NCBI RefSeq assembly: GCF_007474545.1
Contig: NZ_VKOG01000003.1
Coordinates: forward strand, 186,001 to 250,000
Length of the DNA: 64,000 nt
Direction: 5' to 3'
Source of the DNA: Chryseobacterium binzhouense
Lineage (GTDB): Bacteria > Bacteroidota > Bacteroidia > Flavobacteriales > Weeksellaceae
The position numbers were made by a program, and so were the translations under genes. This document shows, piece by piece, positions 1,516 through 10,254 of the stretch. Under the pieces are notes generated by a model. It saw only the letters and a list, made by a program, of their open reading frames with translations, did not search any database and was not told the origin of the DNA. How positions within the stretch are numbered: the stretch's first letter is position 1; each line of letters begins with the position of its first letter.

Positions 1516-2211
1516 TTACGATGGTTTTTCACCTTTCTTTACTTCCGAATTTTTCGCTGCTTTTACCAGTTCATTCGTATCACTGTAGAGCAGTTGCCAA
1601 CCGGGAACATTCTTCATTGCCGTTAAAAGACCGAGGTAGGTTTTCAGGTTTTTCTCAAGATCTTTGCGGATGGCACTTGCACTCGTCATTTGTCGGAGGT
1701 CTGCATTGGCTTCTGCCTGATCTGCAAACTGTACTTCAAAATCTTCATGTTTGGTTTTCATATCTGCGAAAGCCGTATTTAAGGAAAGAGCCGTTATTTT
1801 CTGGCTGTTTTCGTGAGTTTCCAGTTCTTCGATCAGTTTTTTTATCTGTGCGGTTTGTGAAGAATAACTTAAACGATCCAGATTCAGCCCAAAGGTTTTG
1901 AAGATGCCGTACAAATCCTCCGCCAACTGATAATTGGGTGCAGAAGACAGCTTTCGGTAACCGTTGAGAAAGGCTTTCAGATTGGTATAAGCGACATCCC
2001 TTTCATGATCTGCTGTGGCAACATCTTTTCCTTTTCCGCTGTAGATTTGTTTGGTGTAGACCTTATCGTATTCGGTGTAAGAGTTTTGCAGAGTTGTGGT
2101 AAGAGGATGATCGGTAATGACAGAATATTTGCCCGACTGACTGTTGGAAATAATTCTTTGAGCTAAAGTCGCAAGATCTTTAGTGCTCAACTTAGTGAGT
2201 GTAATTTTCAT
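1516..2211 (-). CDS. DUF6261-like protein
   Basis: A helical cytosolic protein of 231 residues when started at the ATG at 2211 (MKITLTKLSTKDLATLAQR). The frame stays open upstream to an ATG at 2247, but the extra 12 residues are basic, low-complexity and lie in AT-rich leader sequence, so I prefer the downstream start. The sequence is rich in Lys, Glu and Leu helices. It ends in a segment (TAMKNVPGWQLLYSDTNELVKAAK) that I associate with the DUF6261 family, found mainly in Bacteroidota and often in several copies per genome. No catalytic motif, signal peptide or membrane segment is visible. Function unknown. The gene is monocistronic and has its own terminator. Confidence 0.65.
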   Translation of the reverse strand: MKITLTKLSTKDLATLAQRIISNSQSGKYSVITDHPLTTTLQNSYTEYDKVYTKQIYSGKGKDVATADHERDVAYTNLKAFLNGYRKLSSAPNYQLAEDLYGIFKTFGLNLDRLSYSSQTAQIKKLIEELETHENSQKITALSLNTAFADMKTKHEDFEVQFADQAEANADLRQMTSASAIRKDLEKNLKTYLGLLTAMKNVPGWQLLYSDTNELVKAAKNSEVKKGEKPS

Positions 2212-2747: not shown

Positions 2748-3311
2748 ATGAGTAAAATATACAATTACTGCGCATTTTACGTTAAAGAACCATTTAGCGA
2801 ATCATCATTAAGAGCTTATGCAACTGAAGATTTTTGTTATTATAATATGTTAAAAGCTTGGAAAGGTTTTGACAGTACATTTCCATTTAGTAATGCACAC
2901 GACACAACATATAATGTTCGTGATAGTAGTGATTGGGAAAATACACTAAAGCCAAGACTTCGTGAAAGGTTAAGAAATTCGAAAAATATTATTTTATTTC
3001 TAAGTGATCATACTCTAAATTCTAGAGCTATAAATGAAGAGATAGACTACGGAATTAACACTTTAAACTTACCAGTAATTGTAATATATCCTAATTTGAA
3101 AAATAAAGAAGATTTATTAACTTCTGATAAAAATATAAACAATAGAGTAAAATCTTTATGGAATAAATTACCCATTTTTAGAGACTCAAAATTTAAGGTA
3201 CCTGTATTACATATACCTTTAAATAAAGAAACCATAAGAACTGCTTTAAATAATTCTGATTTTAGATATGGTTCAGCTAAAAAAAATGATGACTATACTT
3301 ATAAACAATAA
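2748..3311 (+). CDS. thsB: Thoeris ThsB-like TIR domain protein (DUF1863 type)
   Basis: A 187-residue protein made almost entirely of a TIR-like fold. Visible motifs are an N-terminal YCAFYVKE strand, a LKAWKG segment, NIILFLSDHT (80-89), and NSRAINEEIDYGI (91-103) followed by LPVIVIYPN. The Glu in NEEID (97-98) sits where TIR NADases and ThsB proteins carry the catalytic Glu. In Thoeris systems ThsB senses phage infection and makes a signal molecule from NAD+; in type II systems the signal is an ADP-ribose conjugate read by a macro domain. The gene is 3 bases from the TM-macro gene, which fits this reading. It is clearly more AT-rich than flanking housekeeping genes. The system assignment is inferred from family pattern and context. 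Confidence 0.75.
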   Translation: MSKIYNYCAFYVKEPFSESSLRAYATEDFCYYNMLKAWKGFDSTFPFSNAHDTTYNVRDSSDWENTLKPRLRERLRNSKNIILFLSDHTLNSRAINEEIDYGINTLNLPVIVIYPNLKNKEDLLTSDKNINNRVKSLWNKLPIFRDSKFKVPVLHIPLNKETIRTALNNSDFRYGSAKKNDDYTYKQ

Positions 3312-3314
3312 TCA

Positions 3315-4157
3315 ATGAAAGTTAAATTTTTAGATAAAAATGTTAGAAGCAAATTTTGGTTTCTGTTTTCAGTAATTTCAGGTGTTTTATCTTTTATATT
3401 ATTATTTAATATAATTCCAGAGGAACATAAAAATTATTTAAAATATCTCGGATATCTATCGTTTGGTTTGTTAATATTGGCGTACTTCGGAATTTGGATT
3501 TATGCAAATAAACTTACTAACATAAATATAAATATAGATGGAAGTAATGTAAATATTAAATGTGGTGATTTATTTCTAGAAAATGGTCTTAAAACAATTC
3601 CTTTCAATGAGTTTTTTGACACTATTGTTGATGATAAAATTATATCACAAAGCTCACTTAATGGAATTTTTATTGATCGTTTTTTCCAAAATAAAGTTTA
3701 CGATCTTGATAACTTTATTGCTACTCAAACAGATAACTCAGATGTTATTGATAATCAATTCTACAGAAAAAAGGGTGGGAAAAATGTAAAATTTAAGTTA
3801 AGTACAATTTTTGTCTATAATGATTTTGTAATTACTGCCTTTGCCAAATTTGATGAGTATAATAGAGCGACGTTAACAATGCCTGAATATATTGAATTTT
3901 TAATCAATTTTTGGGACAGAATCAATCGCGTGTATGCTCAAAAAAATGTTTCAGTTCCAGTTTTTGGATCTGGTATTACTCGTTTAAAAGAACATAAAAA
4001 CATTAATGACGAAGATTTATTAAAGATAATGATTTGGACATTTAAACTAAGTGAGATGAAATTTAAATATCCTGCCAAATTGACTATTGTTATACATAAA
4101 GACAAAATAGATCAGATTAATCTATTCAATCTTAAATCAATTGAATCAGGATTGTAA
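3315..4157 (+). CDS. thsA: Thoeris type II ThsA-like effector: two TM helices plus macro-like domain
   Basis: A 280-residue protein. Two hydrophobic helices at about 14-33 and 44-63 form a membrane hairpin. A soluble domain follows that begins VNIKCGDLF (79-87), continues IPFNEFFDTIVDDKIISQSSLNG (95-117) and has a Gly-rich VFGSGITRL loop (217-224). This is the look of the macro/DUF6430-like ligand-binding domain of type II Thoeris effectors. In that family, binding of the TIR-made ADP-ribose derivative by the macro domain is thought to trigger the membrane part and stop growth of the infected cell. It directly follows thsB (3-base gap), so the two are co-transcribed. It is not the SIR2-SLOG ThsA of type I systems. 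Confidence 0.75.
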   Translation: MKVKFLDKNVRSKFWFLFSVISGVLSFILLFNIIPEEHKNYLKYLGYLSFGLLILAYFGIWIYANKLTNININIDGSNVNIKCGDLFLENGLKTIPFNEFFDTIVDDKIISQSSLNGIFIDRFFQNKVYDLDNFIATQTDNSDVIDNQFYRKKGGKNVKFKLSTIFVYNDFVITAFAKFDEYNRATLTMPEYIEFLINFWDRINRVYAQKNVSVPVFGSGITRLKEHKNINDEDLLKIMIWTFKLSEMKFKYPAKLTIVIHKDKIDQINLFNLKSIESGL

Positions 4158-4215
4158 TTTTTAATTATGTAGAAATTATTTACAGTTTTTTAATAAAAAA
4201 TAACACCCATTTTAT

Positions 4216-5007
4216 ATGAAAGTTTTTATAAGTTGGTCTGGAGAGAGAAGCAGGCAGGTTGCTGAATTGTTGGACGATTGGATTCAATGTGTTATCCAAG
4301 TTGTTGACCCTTGGATGTCATCAAAGGATATAGATCGTGGAGCTTTATGGTTTACCGAAATATCAGATCAATTGGCAGCAACTGGAGTAGGAATCGTTTG
4401 TTTAACAAAGGAGAATAAAAACAAACCTTGGATTTTATTTGAATCTGGTGCTTTAGCTAAAGGATTAAATTCTAATAGAGTATGTACATTTCTCATAGAT
4501 TTAACTCCGAATGATTTGGAAAATCCTTTGGCTCAATTTAATCATACATTTCCAACAAAAGAAGGTGTATGGGAATTAGTTAGAACTATTAATTTAACAT
4601 TAAAAGATAGAGCACTTAAAGAATCCATTCTTGAAAAAGTTTTTAACACATATTGGCCACAGTTTGAAAGTAAATTTTCTACTATTATAATTAATACTCC
4701 AGAAAATGAAAATTTGGAAAAAAGAGATGAAAGTGATATAATGGGCGATGTATTATCGACAGTTAGAATGTTAGATAGAAGACTTAGAAACATGGAATCA
4801 TTTAACAGAAATAAATTACAATCGGCTGATTCAAATCATATTAATAGAAGAGAATTGTTACAATTAATAAAAGATCATCTTGACGCAGGATTCACCAAAG
4901 ATTTTATTAAACAGCTTCTAAAGGATAAATACAACATTCCAAATATTACAATTGCAAGAGAAATTGATGCAATATTAAATATGCAAAATGAAGCCGAAGG
5001 TGAATGA
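4216..5007 (+). CDS. Second TIR domain protein with helical C-terminal extension
   Basis: A 263-residue protein with a canonical bacterial TIR domain at 1-140: KVFISWSGERS at the start, PWMSSKDIDRGALWF (32-46), GIVCLTKEN (59-67) and PWILFESGALAKG (71-83). Glu76 is the expected NAD-cleaving residue. Residues 150-263 are charged and helical. They include a coiled-coil-like stretch (about 180-200) and a C-terminal helical segment RRELLQLIKDHLDAGFTKD onward that I do not recognise. It follows thsA by 58 bases with no clear promoter between, so it probably belongs to the same operon. Many Thoeris loci carry more than one TIR gene, each possibly tuned to different phages. Whether this one feeds the same effector is inference. 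Confidence 0.75.
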   Translation: MKVFISWSGERSRQVAELLDDWIQCVIQVVDPWMSSKDIDRGALWFTEISDQLAATGVGIVCLTKENKNKPWILFESGALAKGLNSNRVCTFLIDLTPNDLENPLAQFNHTFPTKEGVWELVRTINLTLKDRALKESILEKVFNTYWPQFESKFSTIIINTPENENLEKRDESDIMGDVLSTVRMLDRRLRNMESFNRNKLQSADSNHINRRELLQLIKDHLDAGFTKDFIKQLLKDKYNIPNITIAREIDAILNMQNEAEGE

Positions 5008-5152: not shown

Positions 5153-5187
5153 AAAAAAAGGCTGTTTTCACTAGTTGTGAGACAGCC
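5153..5187 (-). terminator. Stem-loop, probable terminator of the hutU relic
   Basis: AGGCTGT (5159-5165) pairs with ACAGCCT (5181-5187), with further pairing inside. On the minus strand a seven-base T-run follows (A residues at 5153-5158 plus one). It lies beyond the relic hutU end at 5288, in the position a hutU terminator would take. I see no gene in 5008-5287. Confidence 0.6.
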
Positions 5188-5199
5188 TCTATTATTTCT

Positions 5200-5283
5200 G
5201 TTATTGTAAGCAAAGCGAAGCAATCCGTTTAAAATAGTTGTGCAGATTCAACAGATTGCTTCGTCGTTCCTCCTCGCAATGAC
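5200..5283. repeat. Palindromic 84-bp repeat, copy A
   Basis: Begins TTATTGTAAGCAAAGCGAAG and ends TTCGTCGTTCCTCCTCGCAA plus TGAC. The two ends are imperfectly complementary, giving a long hairpin. Nearly identical to 6970-7053, with only a handful of differences. Both copies sit immediately downstream of a hutU 3' end. Confidence 0.8.
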
Positions 5284-5287
5284 GTTT

Positions 5288-5385
5288 TTAAAACAAACTC
5301 TCATCCACAAAATTCGGAAGCGTTACTTTCAAATTTGGTTCAGCTTCCATGGCTCTTTTAATGGCGAAAACAGCACCTTATTTCT
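5288..5385 (-). pseudogene. Relic of the hutU 3' end, copy 1
   Basis: On the minus strand this piece reads as the last 29 residues of urocanate hydratase (GAVFAIKRAMEAEPNLKV then TLPNFVDESLF and a stop). The amino acids are the same as the intact gene at 7057-7146, but several third positions differ, so it came from a diverged allele and is not a recent local copy. Similarity ends at about 5385. Together with copy A of the 84-bp repeat it forms a direct repeat of about 180 bp with 6970-7148. Confidence 0.85.
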
Positions 5386-5438
5386 GACAAAGTTAATCTC
5401 ACCATTTTATCTTTAAACAAAAAAAAAGACGTGTGGAG

Positions 5439-5495
5439 ATTCCCCTCCTCCGGAGGGGTGGATTAATTTTCAAAAGAAAATTAAGACGGGGTGGT
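5439..5495. repeat. Left inverted repeat flanking the DUF559 cassette
   Basis: Contains a CCCCTCC/GGAGGGG hairpin, a TAATTTTC/GAAAATTA hairpin and an outward block GACGGGGTGGT (5485-5495). The same blocks occur in inverted order at 6005-6060 on the other side of the endonuclease gene. Confidence 0.7.
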
Positions 5496-5543
5496 CAGTT
5501 CCATTTTGAAAAAAACGTAACTTCGTTCAAAATAAAAACATAA

Positions 5544-5962
5544 ATGTTAGAAAAACAGATTTTAACACACGTAAACGGCATTATTATCTATCGAAACTCC
5601 GTTGAAAACCTGCCTTACAATCCTCTACTTAAGCCTTTAGCAAAGAAAAAAGAAAATTAGGAATTCTGTCAGAAGTGTTATTCTGGAAACAGGTTAGAAG
5701 TAAAACTTTTCACCATATTGATTTTGACAGACAGAGAATTATCGGTAACTATATTGTTGATTTTTATGTGAAAACTTTGGGACTTGTGGTTGAGATTGAT
5801 GGGACAAGTCACGACTTTAAACAAGAATATGATTTGGAAAGAACAAAGTTTCTGGAAAGTCTGGGTTTGAAAATTTTTAGAATTACCGATTGGGATGTAA
5901 AGCAAAATCTCCCTTTAGCAATGAAAGATCTCGAGAATTTTATTGTTGAGAATTATAGTTGA
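5544..5962 (+). pseudogene. Frameshifted DUF559 (Vsr-like) endonuclease gene
   Basis: An ATG at 5544 opens a frame reading MLEKQILTHVNGIIIYRNSV then ENLPYNPLLKPLAKKKEN and a stop at 5660. The family normally continues as AKEKRKLG-LSEVLFWKQVR. That continuation (RKLGILSEVLFWKQVRSKTF) is present but one frame back, from about 5650 to 5962. One base appears to be missing in or next to the A-run at 5644-5651. The downstream frame keeps the endonuclease core: FHHIDFDRQRIIGNYIVDFY, VVEIDGTSHD and LGLKIFRI, a PD-(D/E)XK-type arrangement related to Vsr. Such genes are small mobile-looking endonucleases of unproven role. The gene lies between inverted repeats (5439-5495 and 6005-6060). Ribosomal slippage on the A-run is possible, but a true frameshift is more likely. 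Confidence 0.75.
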
Positions 5963-6004
5963 TGTTTATTTAAATTAACAGGGTGGCTTGCTTCATTCAA
6001 CATA

Positions 6005-6060
6005 ACCACCCCGTCAATTCGTCTTTGCCGAATCGCCACCCCTCCAAAGGAGGGGAATTC
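6005..6060. repeat. Right inverted repeat flanking the DUF559 cassette
   Basis: ACCACCCCGTC (6005-6015), an ATTCG/CGAAT hairpin, CCACCCCTCC and a CCCCTCC-AAA-GGAGGGG hairpin. This is the reverse order and strand of the blocks at 5439-5495. Confidence 0.7.
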
Positions 6061-6111
6061 TTAGTCAAAGAGATTTTCATCCACAAAATTCGGGAGCATA
6101 ACTTTCAAATT
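6061..6111 (-). pseudogene. Relic of the hutU 3' end, copy 2
   Basis: On the minus strand 17 codons read NLKVMLPNFVDENLFD and stop. The intact gene ends NLKVTLPNFVDESLF. Two substitutions and one extra residue show a third, more diverged allele. It separates the DUF559 cassette from the zeta-toxin module. Confidence 0.8.
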
Positions 6112-6181
6112 TAATTTAACTAAAACACTGAGTTTACAATATCTCTAAACAGCAGAAAGCAAAAGTTTATCTAAAAAAATG

Positions 6182-6189
6182 TAATTTTG
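6182..6189 (+). promoter_or_regulatory. -7 element of the zeta-like operon
   Basis: TAATTTTG fits TAnnTTTG and ends 5 bases before the ATG at 6195, so the 5' leader would be very short or absent. No good -33 element is visible at the expected distance. Confidence 0.45.
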
Positions 6190-6194
6190 CGAAA

Positions 6195-6779
6195 ATGAAC
6201 AACAAAAAGCTTTACATTATAGCAGGTTGCAACGGTGCTGGTAAAACAACAGCTTCGTTCACTATTTTGCCTGAAATTCTGGACTGTAAAGAATTTGTAA
6301 ATGCAGATGAGATTGCAAAAGGATTATCGCCTTTTCAGCCGGAAAAGGTTTCTTTCGAAGCTGGAAGGATAATGCTTAATAGAATTAATGAGCTATTATC
6401 AGAAAATGAAAACTTTGCTTTTGAAACAACATTATCCACTAAAAGCTATAAAAGTAAAATCATCGAAGCAAAGGCAAAAGGTTACAGAGTAACTTTACTG
6501 TTTTTTTGGCTTCAAAATATTGAGTTAGCTAAAGAACGTGTAATAACAAGAGTTTCTGAGGGCGGACATAATATTGAACCGGAAATTATTGCAAGAAGAT
6601 ATATCCGAGGAATTAAAAATCTATTCGATATTTATCTTCCTATTGTTGATGGAGCTTTAATTTTTGATAATTCCGAAGGGCAACATCAATTTTTAGCTGA
6701 CAAACAAATTGATGGCTTAATGAACATCATAAATCACGAAAAATTTAACCTTTTAAAAAACTATTATGACAACAATTGA
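6195..6779 (+). CDS. Zeta-toxin-like P-loop kinase/ATPase (COG4185 type)
   Basis: A 194-residue single-domain protein. The P-loop GCNGAGKTT is at 11-19. NADEIAKGLSPFQPE (36-50) matches the substrate-binding Asp region of zeta toxins, and FAFETTLS (75-82) carries the Thr/Leu motif that follows it. LLFFWLQNIELAKERVITRV (100-119) and ARRYIRGIKNL are also family features. Zeta-type toxins phosphorylate UDP-activated amino sugars and block wall synthesis; for this shorter COG4185-like branch the substrate is not established. No epsilon-like antitoxin lies upstream, but a 49-residue gene overlaps the 3' end by 14 bases. The module sits between a hutU relic and intact hutU, which suggests acquisition. 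Confidence 0.75.
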   Translation: MNNKKLYIIAGCNGAGKTTASFTILPEILDCKEFVNADEIAKGLSPFQPEKVSFEAGRIMLNRINELLSENENFAFETTLSTKSYKSKIIEAKAKGYRVTLLFFWLQNIELAKERVITRVSEGGHNIEPEIIARRYIRGIKNLFDIYLPIVDGALIFDNSEGQHQFLADKQIDGLMNIINHEKFNLLKNYYDNN

Positions 6780-6915
6780 AATTCAGATAGAAGAAAGAAA
6801 TAAAATACTGAAAGGGCTTGAAAAAACGTACGAAAAACTTTTGGAATTTAAAAAAAATAAAAAAAGTGAACTAGTAGTTCTGCGTGACAATAAGATTGTG
6901 AAAATCAAACTTTAA
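6766..6915 (+). CDS. Small 49-residue partner of the zeta-like gene
   Basis: The ATG at 6766 lies inside the last codons of the zeta-like gene in another frame (14-base overlap). It encodes MTTIEIQIEERNKILKGLEK, then a Lys-rich helix and a C-terminal strand pair ELVVLRDNKIVKIKL. The overlap implies translational coupling. The size, charge and tight linkage suit an antitoxin or accessory subunit, but I do not recognise a named family. A bidirectional terminator follows at 6936. Confidence 0.6.
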   Translation: MTTIEIQIEERNKILKGLEKTYEKLLEFKKNKKSELVVLRDNKIVKIKL

Positions 6916-6935
6916 TAAATTATTATATTATATAG

Positions 6936-6963
6936 AAAAACCTGCCTCACAGCAGGTTTTTTT
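6936..6963. terminator. Bidirectional terminator between the zeta module and hutU
   Basis: The AAAAACCTGC arm (6936-6945) pairs with GCAGGTTTTT (6952-6961) around a 6-base loop, with T-runs on both strands. It can end both converging transcripts. Confidence 0.8.
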
Positions 6964-6969
6964 ATATCT

Positions 6970-7053
6970 GTCATTGTAAGCAAAGCGAAGCAATCCGTTT
7001 AAAATACTTGTGCAGATTTAAGAGATTGCTTCGTCGTTCGTCCTCGCAATGAC
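6970..7053. repeat. Palindromic 84-bp repeat, copy B
   Basis: Close copy of 5200-5283, located 3 bases past the hutU stop codon. The arms TCATTGTAAGCAAAGCGAAG and TTCGTCGTTC-CTCGCAATGA are imperfectly complementary. Confidence 0.8.
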
Positions 7054-7056
7054 ATT

Positions 7057-9042
7057 TTAAAACAAGCTCTCATCCACAAAATTCGGGAGCGTCACTTTCA
7101 GATTCGGTTCTGCTTCCATGGCTCTTTTAATGGCGAAAACAGCACCTTCATTTCTTGCCCAGCTTCGTCTTGAAATTCCGTTATTTACGTCCCAGAAAAG
7201 CATTGATTTTAATCTTCTGTCGGCATCATCGCTTCCATCGAGCAACATCCCGAAACCACCGTTAATGACTTCGCCCCATCCTACTCCGCCTCCGTTGTGG
7301 ATGGAAACCCAGGTTGCTCCACGGAAACTGTCGCCAATCACATTGTGAATCGCCATATCTGCCGTAAATCTCGAACCGTCATAAATATTGGAAGTCTCTC
7401 TGTACGGAGAATCTGTCCCCGATACATCATGATGATCTCTTCCCAAAACCACCGCTCCGATTTCTCCGTTGGCAATAGCTTTGTTGAAGGCTTCAGCGAT
7501 TTTCATTCTTCCTTCCGCATCGGCATATAAAATTCTTGCCTGCGAACCGACCACGAGATTATTTTCCTGCGCTTCTTTGATCCACTGAATATTGTCTTTC
7601 ATCTGCTGCTGAATTTCTTCCGGAGAAGTTTTAATCATTTCCTCTAAAACTTGGCAGGCAATTTCATCCGTTTTCTGCAGATCTTCCGGTTTTCCGCTTG
7701 CACAAACCCAACGGAACGGTCCGAAACCATAATCAAAACACATCGGTCCCATAATATCCTGAACGTAAGAAGGGAATTTGAACTCTCTTCCCAACGTAGG
7801 ATGATCTGACATTACATCGGCTCCGGCTCTTGAAGCTTCCAGTAAAAAGGCGTTTCCGTAATCAAAGAAATACGTTCCTTTTTCTGTATGTTTATTGATG
7901 GCTGCAGCGTGTCTTTTCAAAGTCTCCTGAACTTTTCCCTTGAATAATTCAGGGTTTTCTGCCATCATGATATTGGATTCTTCAAAGCTTTGTCCGGCAG
8001 GATAATATCCTCCCGCCCAAGGATTGTGAAGCGAAGTCTGATCGCTGCCAATATCAATTTTTATGTTTTCCTGATCAAATTTTTCCCAAACCTCAACGAT
8101 GTTTCCAAGATAAGCCAGAGAAACCGATTCTTTATTTTCCTGCGCTTTTCTTACTCTTTCTACCAGTTTATCCAGATTTTCATGGATTTCGTTCACCCAT
8201 TTCTGGTCGTGACGAATCTTGGTAATCTTCGGGTTAACTTCTGCACAAACCGTCACACAACCTGCAATATTTCCTGCTTTTGGCTGTGCTCCGGACATTC
8301 CGCCCAAACCTGAAGTCACGAACAATCCGCCTTTTGGTGCTTTATTTATTTTTCTGAATGCATTCAAAACCGTAATTGTTGTTCCGTGAACAATTCCCTG
8401 CGGACCGATATACATATAACTTCCCGCAGTCATTTGCCCGTACTGCGAAACCCCCAAAGCATTGAATTTTTCCCAGTCATCGGGTTTAGAATAGTTAGGA
8501 ATTACCATCCCGTTTGTCACGACCACTCTCGGCGCATCTTTATGCGAAGGAAATAATCCCATCGGATGACCGGAATACATCACCAGAGTCTGTTCGTCCG
8601 TCATTTCAGACAGATATTTCATGGTTAAAAGATACTGCGCCCAGTTGGAGAAAACTCCTCCGTTTCCACCGTAAGTAATCAATTCGTGAGGATGTTGCGC
8701 TACAGCATAATCCAGATTGTTCTGAATCATCAGCATAATCGCTTTTGCCTGCTCAGATTTTCCGGGATATTCAGAAATTGGTCTGGCTTTCATTTCGTAA
8801 TCCGGACGAAAACGGTACATATAAATTCTTCCGTATTCATCAAGTTCTTTTCTGAACTCCAGAATTAACTCTGCATGAAATTGAGGTTCGAAATACCGTA
8901 AAGCATTCTTTAATGCTAATTTTTTTTCTTCTTCCGTTAAAATTTCTTTACGTTTCGGAGCGTGGTTGATGTTGGTTTCGTATGGTTTCGGTTGTGGCAG
9001 CTGGCTTGGAATACCCTGCTGTATTTGCTCTTTGAAAGTCAT
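7057..9042 (-). CDS. hutU: Urocanate hydratase
   Basis: Converts urocanate to imidazolone propionate, the second step of histidine degradation, using tightly bound NAD+. At 661 residues it matches the longer urocanase form. Signature segments in order are GGNGGVFSNWAQYLL, YSGHPMGLFP, QMTAGSYMYIGPQGIVHGTT, TSGLGGMSGAQPKAGNIAGC (NAD-binding), GSDQTSLHNPWAGGYYPAG, FGPFRWVCASG (the active-site Cys) and HNGGGVGWGEVINGGFGM. The start ATG at 9042 gives a full N-terminus. No other hut gene is present nearby, so the gene stands alone here. Its 3' end is the apparent target of repeated insertions, with two relics at 5288 and 6061. Confidence 0.95.
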   Translation of the reverse strand: MTFKEQIQQGIPSQLPQPKPYETNINHAPKRKEILTEEEKKLALKNALRYFEPQFHAELILEFRKELDEYGRIYMYRFRPDYEMKARPISEYPGKSEQAKAIMLMIQNNLDYAVAQHPHELITYGGNGGVFSNWAQYLLTMKYLSEMTDEQTLVMYSGHPMGLFPSHKDAPRVVVTNGMVIPNYSKPDDWEKFNALGVSQYGQMTAGSYMYIGPQGIVHGTTITVLNAFRKINKAPKGGLFVTSGLGGMSGAQPKAGNIAGCVTVCAEVNPKITKIRHDQKWVNEIHENLDKLVERVRKAQENKESVSLAYLGNIVEVWEKFDQENIKIDIGSDQTSLHNPWAGGYYPAGQSFEESNIMMAENPELFKGKVQETLKRHAAAINKHTEKGTYFFDYGNAFLLEASRAGADVMSDHPTLGREFKFPSYVQDIMGPMCFDYGFGPFRWVCASGKPEDLQKTDEIACQVLEEMIKTSPEEIQQQMKDNIQWIKEAQENNLVVGSQARILYADAEGRMKIAEAFNKAIANGEIGAVVLGRDHHDVSGTDSPYRETSNIYDGSRFTADMAIHNVIGDSFRGATWVSIHNGGGVGWGEVINGGFGMLLDGSDDADRRLKSMLFWDVNNGISRRSWARNEGAVFAIKRAMEAEPNLKVTLPNFVDESLF

Positions 9043-9886: not shown

Positions 9887-9892
9887 TGTTGG

Positions 9893-9965
<73 letters not shown>

Positions 9966-10005
9966 GTATATTTTCTGAAACGTTTACCGAAAACGTTATG
10001 CTTAG

Positions 10006-10078
<73 letters not shown>

Positions 10079-10114
10079 ATATATTTTTGCACTCTAAATG
10101 GTAAGTGACCTTAG

Positions 10115-10187
<73 letters not shown>

Positions 10188-10254
10188 ATATTGGACTGCA
10201 AATATACGAATAATTCTTAAAAATGCAAGTTTTTCTTTTAAATAAGGCATATTC

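Follow-up and report, generated by a model that had tools for sequence, protein, structure and literature searches.

The window analysed here, a stretch of 64,000 nucleotides (nt) from Chryseobacterium binzhouense (contig NZ_VKOG01000003.1), contains hutU, the gene for urocanate hydratase, and beyond its 3' end two displaced copies of that end, which we call relics 1 and 2. Both relics are located downstream of hutU, lie on the hutU strand and end at the hutU stop codon. Read outwards from hutU, a zeta-toxin-family kinase gene and its partner of 49 amino acids (aa) are followed by relic 2, a DUF559 gene, relic 1 and an operon encoding ThsB, ThsA-macro and TIR proteins (Table 1). Three hutU ends in a row had been described in a first-pass annotation made from the window's sequence alone, and they are real: the expectation values (E) of both relics, obtained when the sequences downstream of hutU were searched in 101 loci, exclude chance. 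These loci, of up to 20 kb around hutU, come from the window and from 100 congeneric genomes taken by HutU similarity from 174, all 174 of which gave a hutU match. A later addition of 20 genomes, two of them picked for their extra matches, extended the congeneric set, with one genome per species, to 121 loci, of which L048, L086, L093 and L145 have less than 7 kb downstream. Another 15 loci, partly preselected, represent other genera of the family. Loci are numbered with L and genomes with G, L031 being the hutU locus of genome G030, whose HutU is 97% identical to that of the window.

The peptide of relic 1, GAVFAIKRAMEAEPNLKVTLPNFVDESLF followed by a stop, is the HutU end; its codons differ from those of hutU by synonymous changes, as the annotation had read them, and in addition by a one-base deletion at the 5' edge. 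The further C-terminus that had been placed near 6061 was likewise recovered, relic 2 reading NLKVMLPNFVDENLFD before its stop. Relic 1 and the 84-bp sequence behind it form, together with the end of hutU and the sequence following it, the expected direct repeat of about 180 bp, in two segments of 89% (5183-5292 and 6953-7062) and 94% identity (5286-5379 and 7055-7148). The 84-bp repeat has two full copies in the whole genome, both at this site, and elsewhere a single match of about 33 nt. As for the cargo, Pfam and PADLOC agree with the modules as they had been named (Thoeris-like, DUF559, zeta-like pair), the 49-aa zeta partner having no match. According to both databases the ThsB TIR protein adjoins the ThsA effector, as in Thoeris, the activity of which is here predicted from the genes.

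Table 1. Features of the hutU region of the window (ORF, open reading frame)
Feature	Position	Strand	Remarks
hutU (urocanate hydratase), anchor gene	7057..9042	minus	661-aa ORF
84-bp repeat after hutU	6973..7056		
49-aa ORF, overlaps kinase gene	6766..6915	plus	no Pfam or PADLOC match
zeta-toxin-family kinase, cargo between hutU and relic 2	6195..6779	plus	PF06414 3.1e-10; homologous unit in L115
relic 2, displaced hutU 3' end, ...NLKVMLPNFVDENLFD-stop	6061..6112	minus	E 6.5e-6; best match is the L031 hutU end
DUF559 gene, cargo between relics 2 and 1	5675..5962	plus	PF04480 9.2e-23; unit colinear with L031
relic 1, displaced hutU 3' end, ...GAVFAIKRAMEAEPNLKVTLPNFVDESLF-stop	5288..5385	minus	E 2.6e-26
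84-bp repeat after relic 1	5203..5286		94% identical to the copy after hutU
TIR protein	4216..5007	plus	PF13676 1.9e-6; PADLOC TIR-TM 5.9e-64
ThsA-like protein with macro domain	3315..4157	plus	PF20016 8.5e-61; PADLOC ThsA 6.6e-111
ThsB-like TIR protein	2748..3311	plus	PF08937 1e-26; PADLOC ThsB 4.5e-71
DUF6261 gene, far border of variable region	1516..2211	minus	PF19775 6.5e-20; family in 44 of 101 loci

Relics of this kind recur elsewhere in the family. The congeneric loci hold 20 of them in 17 of the 121 loci (18 in 15 of the first 101), and the other genera a further six in five of the 15 loci (L174, L175 with two, L176, L177 and L193), giving the 26 relics considered below. Left out of this count were the first relic of L055 (E 0.006 with a 150-nt model, not found with a longer one), weak matches in L129, L086 and L141, a remnant in L031, L181 (on a separate contig), L210 (E 0.002, outside the counted set) and L263, which was read as that locus's own frameshifted hutU end. 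All 26 relics lie on the hutU strand, and 25 of them end within 6 nt of the stop. Outside the family, 59 loci were examined, most of them from Flavobacteriaceae and 56 with at least 2 kb downstream, and no relic was found. When whole genomes were searched with the window's tail, 15 of 173 gave more than one match and, among the matches listed, the five second matches all adjoin hutU; in the order outside the family, a second match occurred in two of the 119 genomes with the tail peptide, and among the matches listed one falls within a frame of 685 codons on a different contig.

What stands behind the relics tells how they arose. For 23 of the 26, the 120 nt behind the relic match sequence found within 150 nt after the intact hutU of another genome, compared with 71 of 1,899 random stretches. 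Since these relics carry the post-hutU sequence of other genomes, they are displaced hutU ends. The same observation contradicts local duplication or an assembly error as their source, an explanation that we regard as very improbable: whole modules lie between relics, and the relics of L108 and L112 stand at the same places in the records L203 (C. caseinilyticum) and L204 (C. tagetis), which are probably the same assemblies. It would suit L118, where the stretch 159-562 nt after the hutU stop holds two relics that share the same junction and are separated by about 280 nt lacking any clear gene, an arrangement that also resembles an amplified empty unit. A comparison of the window's relics with hutU of other species had been proposed, and the best match of relic 2 is indeed a native hutU end, that of G030, which reads ...NLFD before the stop as relic 2 does; behind it come the DUF559 unit and what remains of relic 1. 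The stretch from relic 2 to relic 1 is colinear with L031 over about 750 nt, beginning in the L031 hutU end.

Within these loci, the displacement is largely a property of hutU. Control profiles built on the ends of 16 other core gene families also gave extra matches, 26 for 3' ends and 46 for 5' ends, which are taken as probable whole, truncated or uncalled copies, many of them at locus ends. A blastn comparison of 1,770 genes in the 121 loci is the better control because it separates copies with upstream homology. It returned 19 tail-only matches for hutU and seven, in six genes, for all others, whereas matches with upstream homology numbered 65 among the other genes and one among the 20 of hutU. 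At the same settings, a second tail was present in 17 of 121 hutU loci and in six of about 1,649 other genes (p = 4e-16); these 17 loci are not quite the 17 with relics, L138 being included and L116 missing. The six other genes with a tail-only second copy are found at L061, L072, L107, L116, L119 and L144, and in L072 and L144 the second copies reach the gene end and may be similar cases.

The region into which these ends have been displaced is highly variable. The first gene after hutU belongs to 48 families in the 101 loci, with an effective number of 28.5, and the commonest family accounts for 0.22 of the loci. On 30 other core-gene sides the effective number was at most 8 in 24 cases and 12.0-38.3 in six, so that the neighbour of hutU is more variable than that of 29 of the 30, the sole exception being the DUF6261 side that faces hutU. 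One common arrangement and average variability, named beforehand as outcomes that would speak against a hotspot, were both looked for, and neither was found. In Chryseobacterium and some of its relatives, the 3' side of hutU is a hotspot of gene turnover. The next gene begins, in many loci, less than 40 nt past the hutU stop on the same strand, and with such a start it may be co-transcribed with hutU.

The cargo between hutU and the first core gene was scanned with 140 of 159 representatives and five window proteins, the results being drawn from the best 25 families per table. PADLOC matches included Kiwa, Drt4, AbiU, Nsn, AriA, GajA, Old and Thoeris proteins, and Pfam matches included GmrSD, the EcoRV endonuclease and two transposase families. 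Among ten genes chosen near hutU, seven had a PADLOC match at 1e-10, including a type II methyltransferase and restriction pair in L089, AbiU in L106 and AriAB in L050. The notion of hutU as a defence hotspot, of which we found no description in the open-access literature, in agreement with the first-pass annotation, holds in that several unrelated defence systems occur at this locus and defence genes are common there across the genus, by counts made at this locus only; it does not extend to all the cargo, since five of six relic-bounded single genes have no Pfam match. The Thoeris operon of the window (2748-5007) stands behind a gene of histidine degradation, and one Thoeris type signals via a molecule of histidine-ADPR (ADP-ribose); we take the neighbourhood as a coincidence. 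On the other side of hutU, a repeat comparison showed three copies, at 9889-10191, of an 81-nt sequence that resembles a tRNA gene.

The modules recur as blocks bounded by hutU tails. The zeta unit comes first in the array of the window and second in that of L115 (85.8% identity over 354 nt), where the junction is similar but the relic is followed by different sequence. What lies behind relic 2 in the window follows hutU directly in L031 and in L193, from another genus, and appears again behind a relic in L175, also from another genus (89.1% over 397 nt). Likewise, L032 and L149 have in common the cargo and the junction of cargo and tail, while the sequence behind the relic differs. L074, L087 and L115 have common cargo with a junction near -112 (positions are nt counted relative to the hutU end, negative inside hutU), and behind each relic stands sequence typical of other relatives. 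The relics of L074 and L115 have a common gap of 4-5 nt in their 5' halves and differ in their 3' halves, and L108 and L141, 96% identical, begin to diverge inside the relic. Units are thus tail-bounded blocks, and one and the same unit turns up in several species, in one instance also in a second genus, at other positions of the array and before different tails. A much larger block is seen in L131 (G066), where an island of 12.7 kb with a truncated integrase and with genes that, judged by their sequences, resemble those of type VI secretion lies between hutU and a relic, 272 to 12,767 nt after the hutU stop.

We consider it probable that these are units anchored on the end of a host gene and moved by homologous recombination within that end, which is the best explanation of the observations. 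Modules would be inserted within the last ~130 nt of hutU or next to them, each bringing its own copy of the hutU end and pushing the resident end outward together with what lay behind it; HutU would stay intact because each module supplies that copy. Repeated entry would produce the order hutU, unit, relic, unit, relic, with the newest unit presumably nearest hutU. Movement of the units would rely on RecA-type recombination within the tail, with DNA uptake as the probable preceding step; natural competence has been reported for Riemerella. Loss of units by loop-out between repeats would also be possible. Recombination in the tail is favoured by several cases in which the junction stays with the cargo but what follows the relic belongs to the host, and by the mosaic look of the relics. 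In its favour, too, no carrier of the hutU tail was found among plasmids or phages, and of 34 pattern matches in viral contigs none was confirmed.

How a new cargo is first joined to a tail would be left unexplained by such movement, and it is here that one-sided, homology-facilitated recombination has its strength. Foreign DNA would pair with hutU at one end and form an illegitimate joint at the other, and a joint falling inside hutU would leave a relic; the variation of relic starts, from -49 to -360, is what it predicts. Joints would then be expected all along the 2-kb hutU, whereas in the 101 loci the last 150 nt have 18 extra copies and the twelve other 150-nt segments none, and the junctions common to several species point to the movement of ready-made units. 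We therefore regard one-sided recombination as a rather unlikely account of the whole pattern, although it may well be the origin of new units.

Several observations weigh against movement by homologous recombination. In hutU no divergence step was seen that would mark imported tails, with one genome per species compared, and pairs with common downstream DNA were more alike in the last 11 codons in only two of four divergence classes (ratios 1.05, 1.07, 0.71 and 0.65). L112 and L116 have common cargo with no alignable junction, and the same cargo often appears with no detected relic behind it, as in one family, where this holds for 21 of 23 members, some of which do not adjoin hutU. The window may have gained the zeta unit after the split from G030, or G030 may have lost it by recombination between tails, and gain and loss look alike; the case of relic 2 and the DUF559 unit of G030 fits the suggestion that modules arrived with hutU ends of their own, but a loss of the zeta unit in G030 gives the same picture. 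Finally, 12 of 26 relic starts fall between -134 and -105, the rest lying elsewhere, and three unrelated cargos begin at -127 to -129, which would suit a site-specific enzyme.

Such an enzyme is the basis of the main rival explanation, according to which a trans-acting site-specific recombinase would act at a site near -126 to -111 in hutU on non-autonomous units whose attachment site carries the hutU end, the shorter relics having decayed. A post hoc test of the starts on hand-counted positions gave p = 0.002 (8 of 19 in a 17-nt band), the genome of the window has 11 matches to tyrosine recombinases, and the synonymous variety of codons -35 to -26 is the third lowest of 652 codon windows, a modest reduction to 0.68 of expected. 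However, none of the 11 matches is near hutU, and with these 11 tyrosine recombinases as queries, serine recombinases not being sought, a single integrase-like ORF was detected downstream of hutU in 121 loci, the 241-aa remnant in L131. In G086 and G051, the homologues of this remnant lack the tail of hutU, because the homology to L131 begins only 6-22 nt after the hutU stop, and the remnant was rejected as mover of the tail. Relic starts also differ between cargos, with outliers at -154 (L174) and -360 (L177), both in other genera, and at -180 (L055), and the mosaic appearance of the relics is a further point against a fixed site. We judge a site-specific recombinase unlikely, if less so than one-sided recombination; of the two routes that had been left side by side at first, recombination and site-specific insertion, the evidence leans to recombination without settling between them.

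A broader reading can be put forward tentatively, although we hold it somewhat less probable than its contrary. Mobile cassettes, each a gene with its tail, could form a pool common to the whole family, with the hutU end as their shared handle for recombination; they would cross species and genera, stack by arrival and be lost by loop-out, so that an integron-like adaptive array would form from host homology alone, with no integrase. Many hotspots show no mobile element, and the route of gene gain is hard to see in them. The displaced anchor ends at hutU allow shared units, their probable order and the crossover zones to be read from genomes, and a search for displaced core-gene ends would be an easy way to find further sites of this type as well as uncharacterised cargo genes.

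We found no description, in the open-access literature, of displaced ends of an anchor gene building arrays, although several known systems share part of the picture. Integron cassettes are units with a short repeated recombination sequence stacked beside an anchor, and hutU units also stack in this way; unlike in integrons, the repeat at hutU is part of a host protein gene. No integron integrase was seen near hutU in the tyrosine-recombinase searches of the 121 loci, in which no IntI model was run, and the hutU tail has no attC-like fold (z-scores of +0.24 to +1.64 on four strands from two genomes). Tyrosine-recombinase islands at gene 3' ends replace the gene end and displace the old one, as happens at hutU, but hutU units are mostly small, their relic starts vary and no intact integrase was found. 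In the minimal mobile elements of Neisseria, cassettes are swapped by recombination in flanking conserved genes, a likeness to hutU; to our knowledge these elements lack the arrays of displaced gene ends found there. Core defence hotspots, for instance those of Pseudomonas aeruginosa, gather many unrelated defence genes at one chromosomal address, as hutU does; displaced gene ends would be what sets the hutU locus apart. A further parallel may be drawn with established hotspots that lack recognizable mobile elements and are attributed to recombination at the core genes beside them (Oliveira et al. 2017, PMC5635113): there, as at hutU, genes turn over between core genes, no intact integrase is seen and recombination at the flanks is the proposed driver, whereas the hotspot at hutU contains displaced anchor-gene ends by which its successive units are marked.

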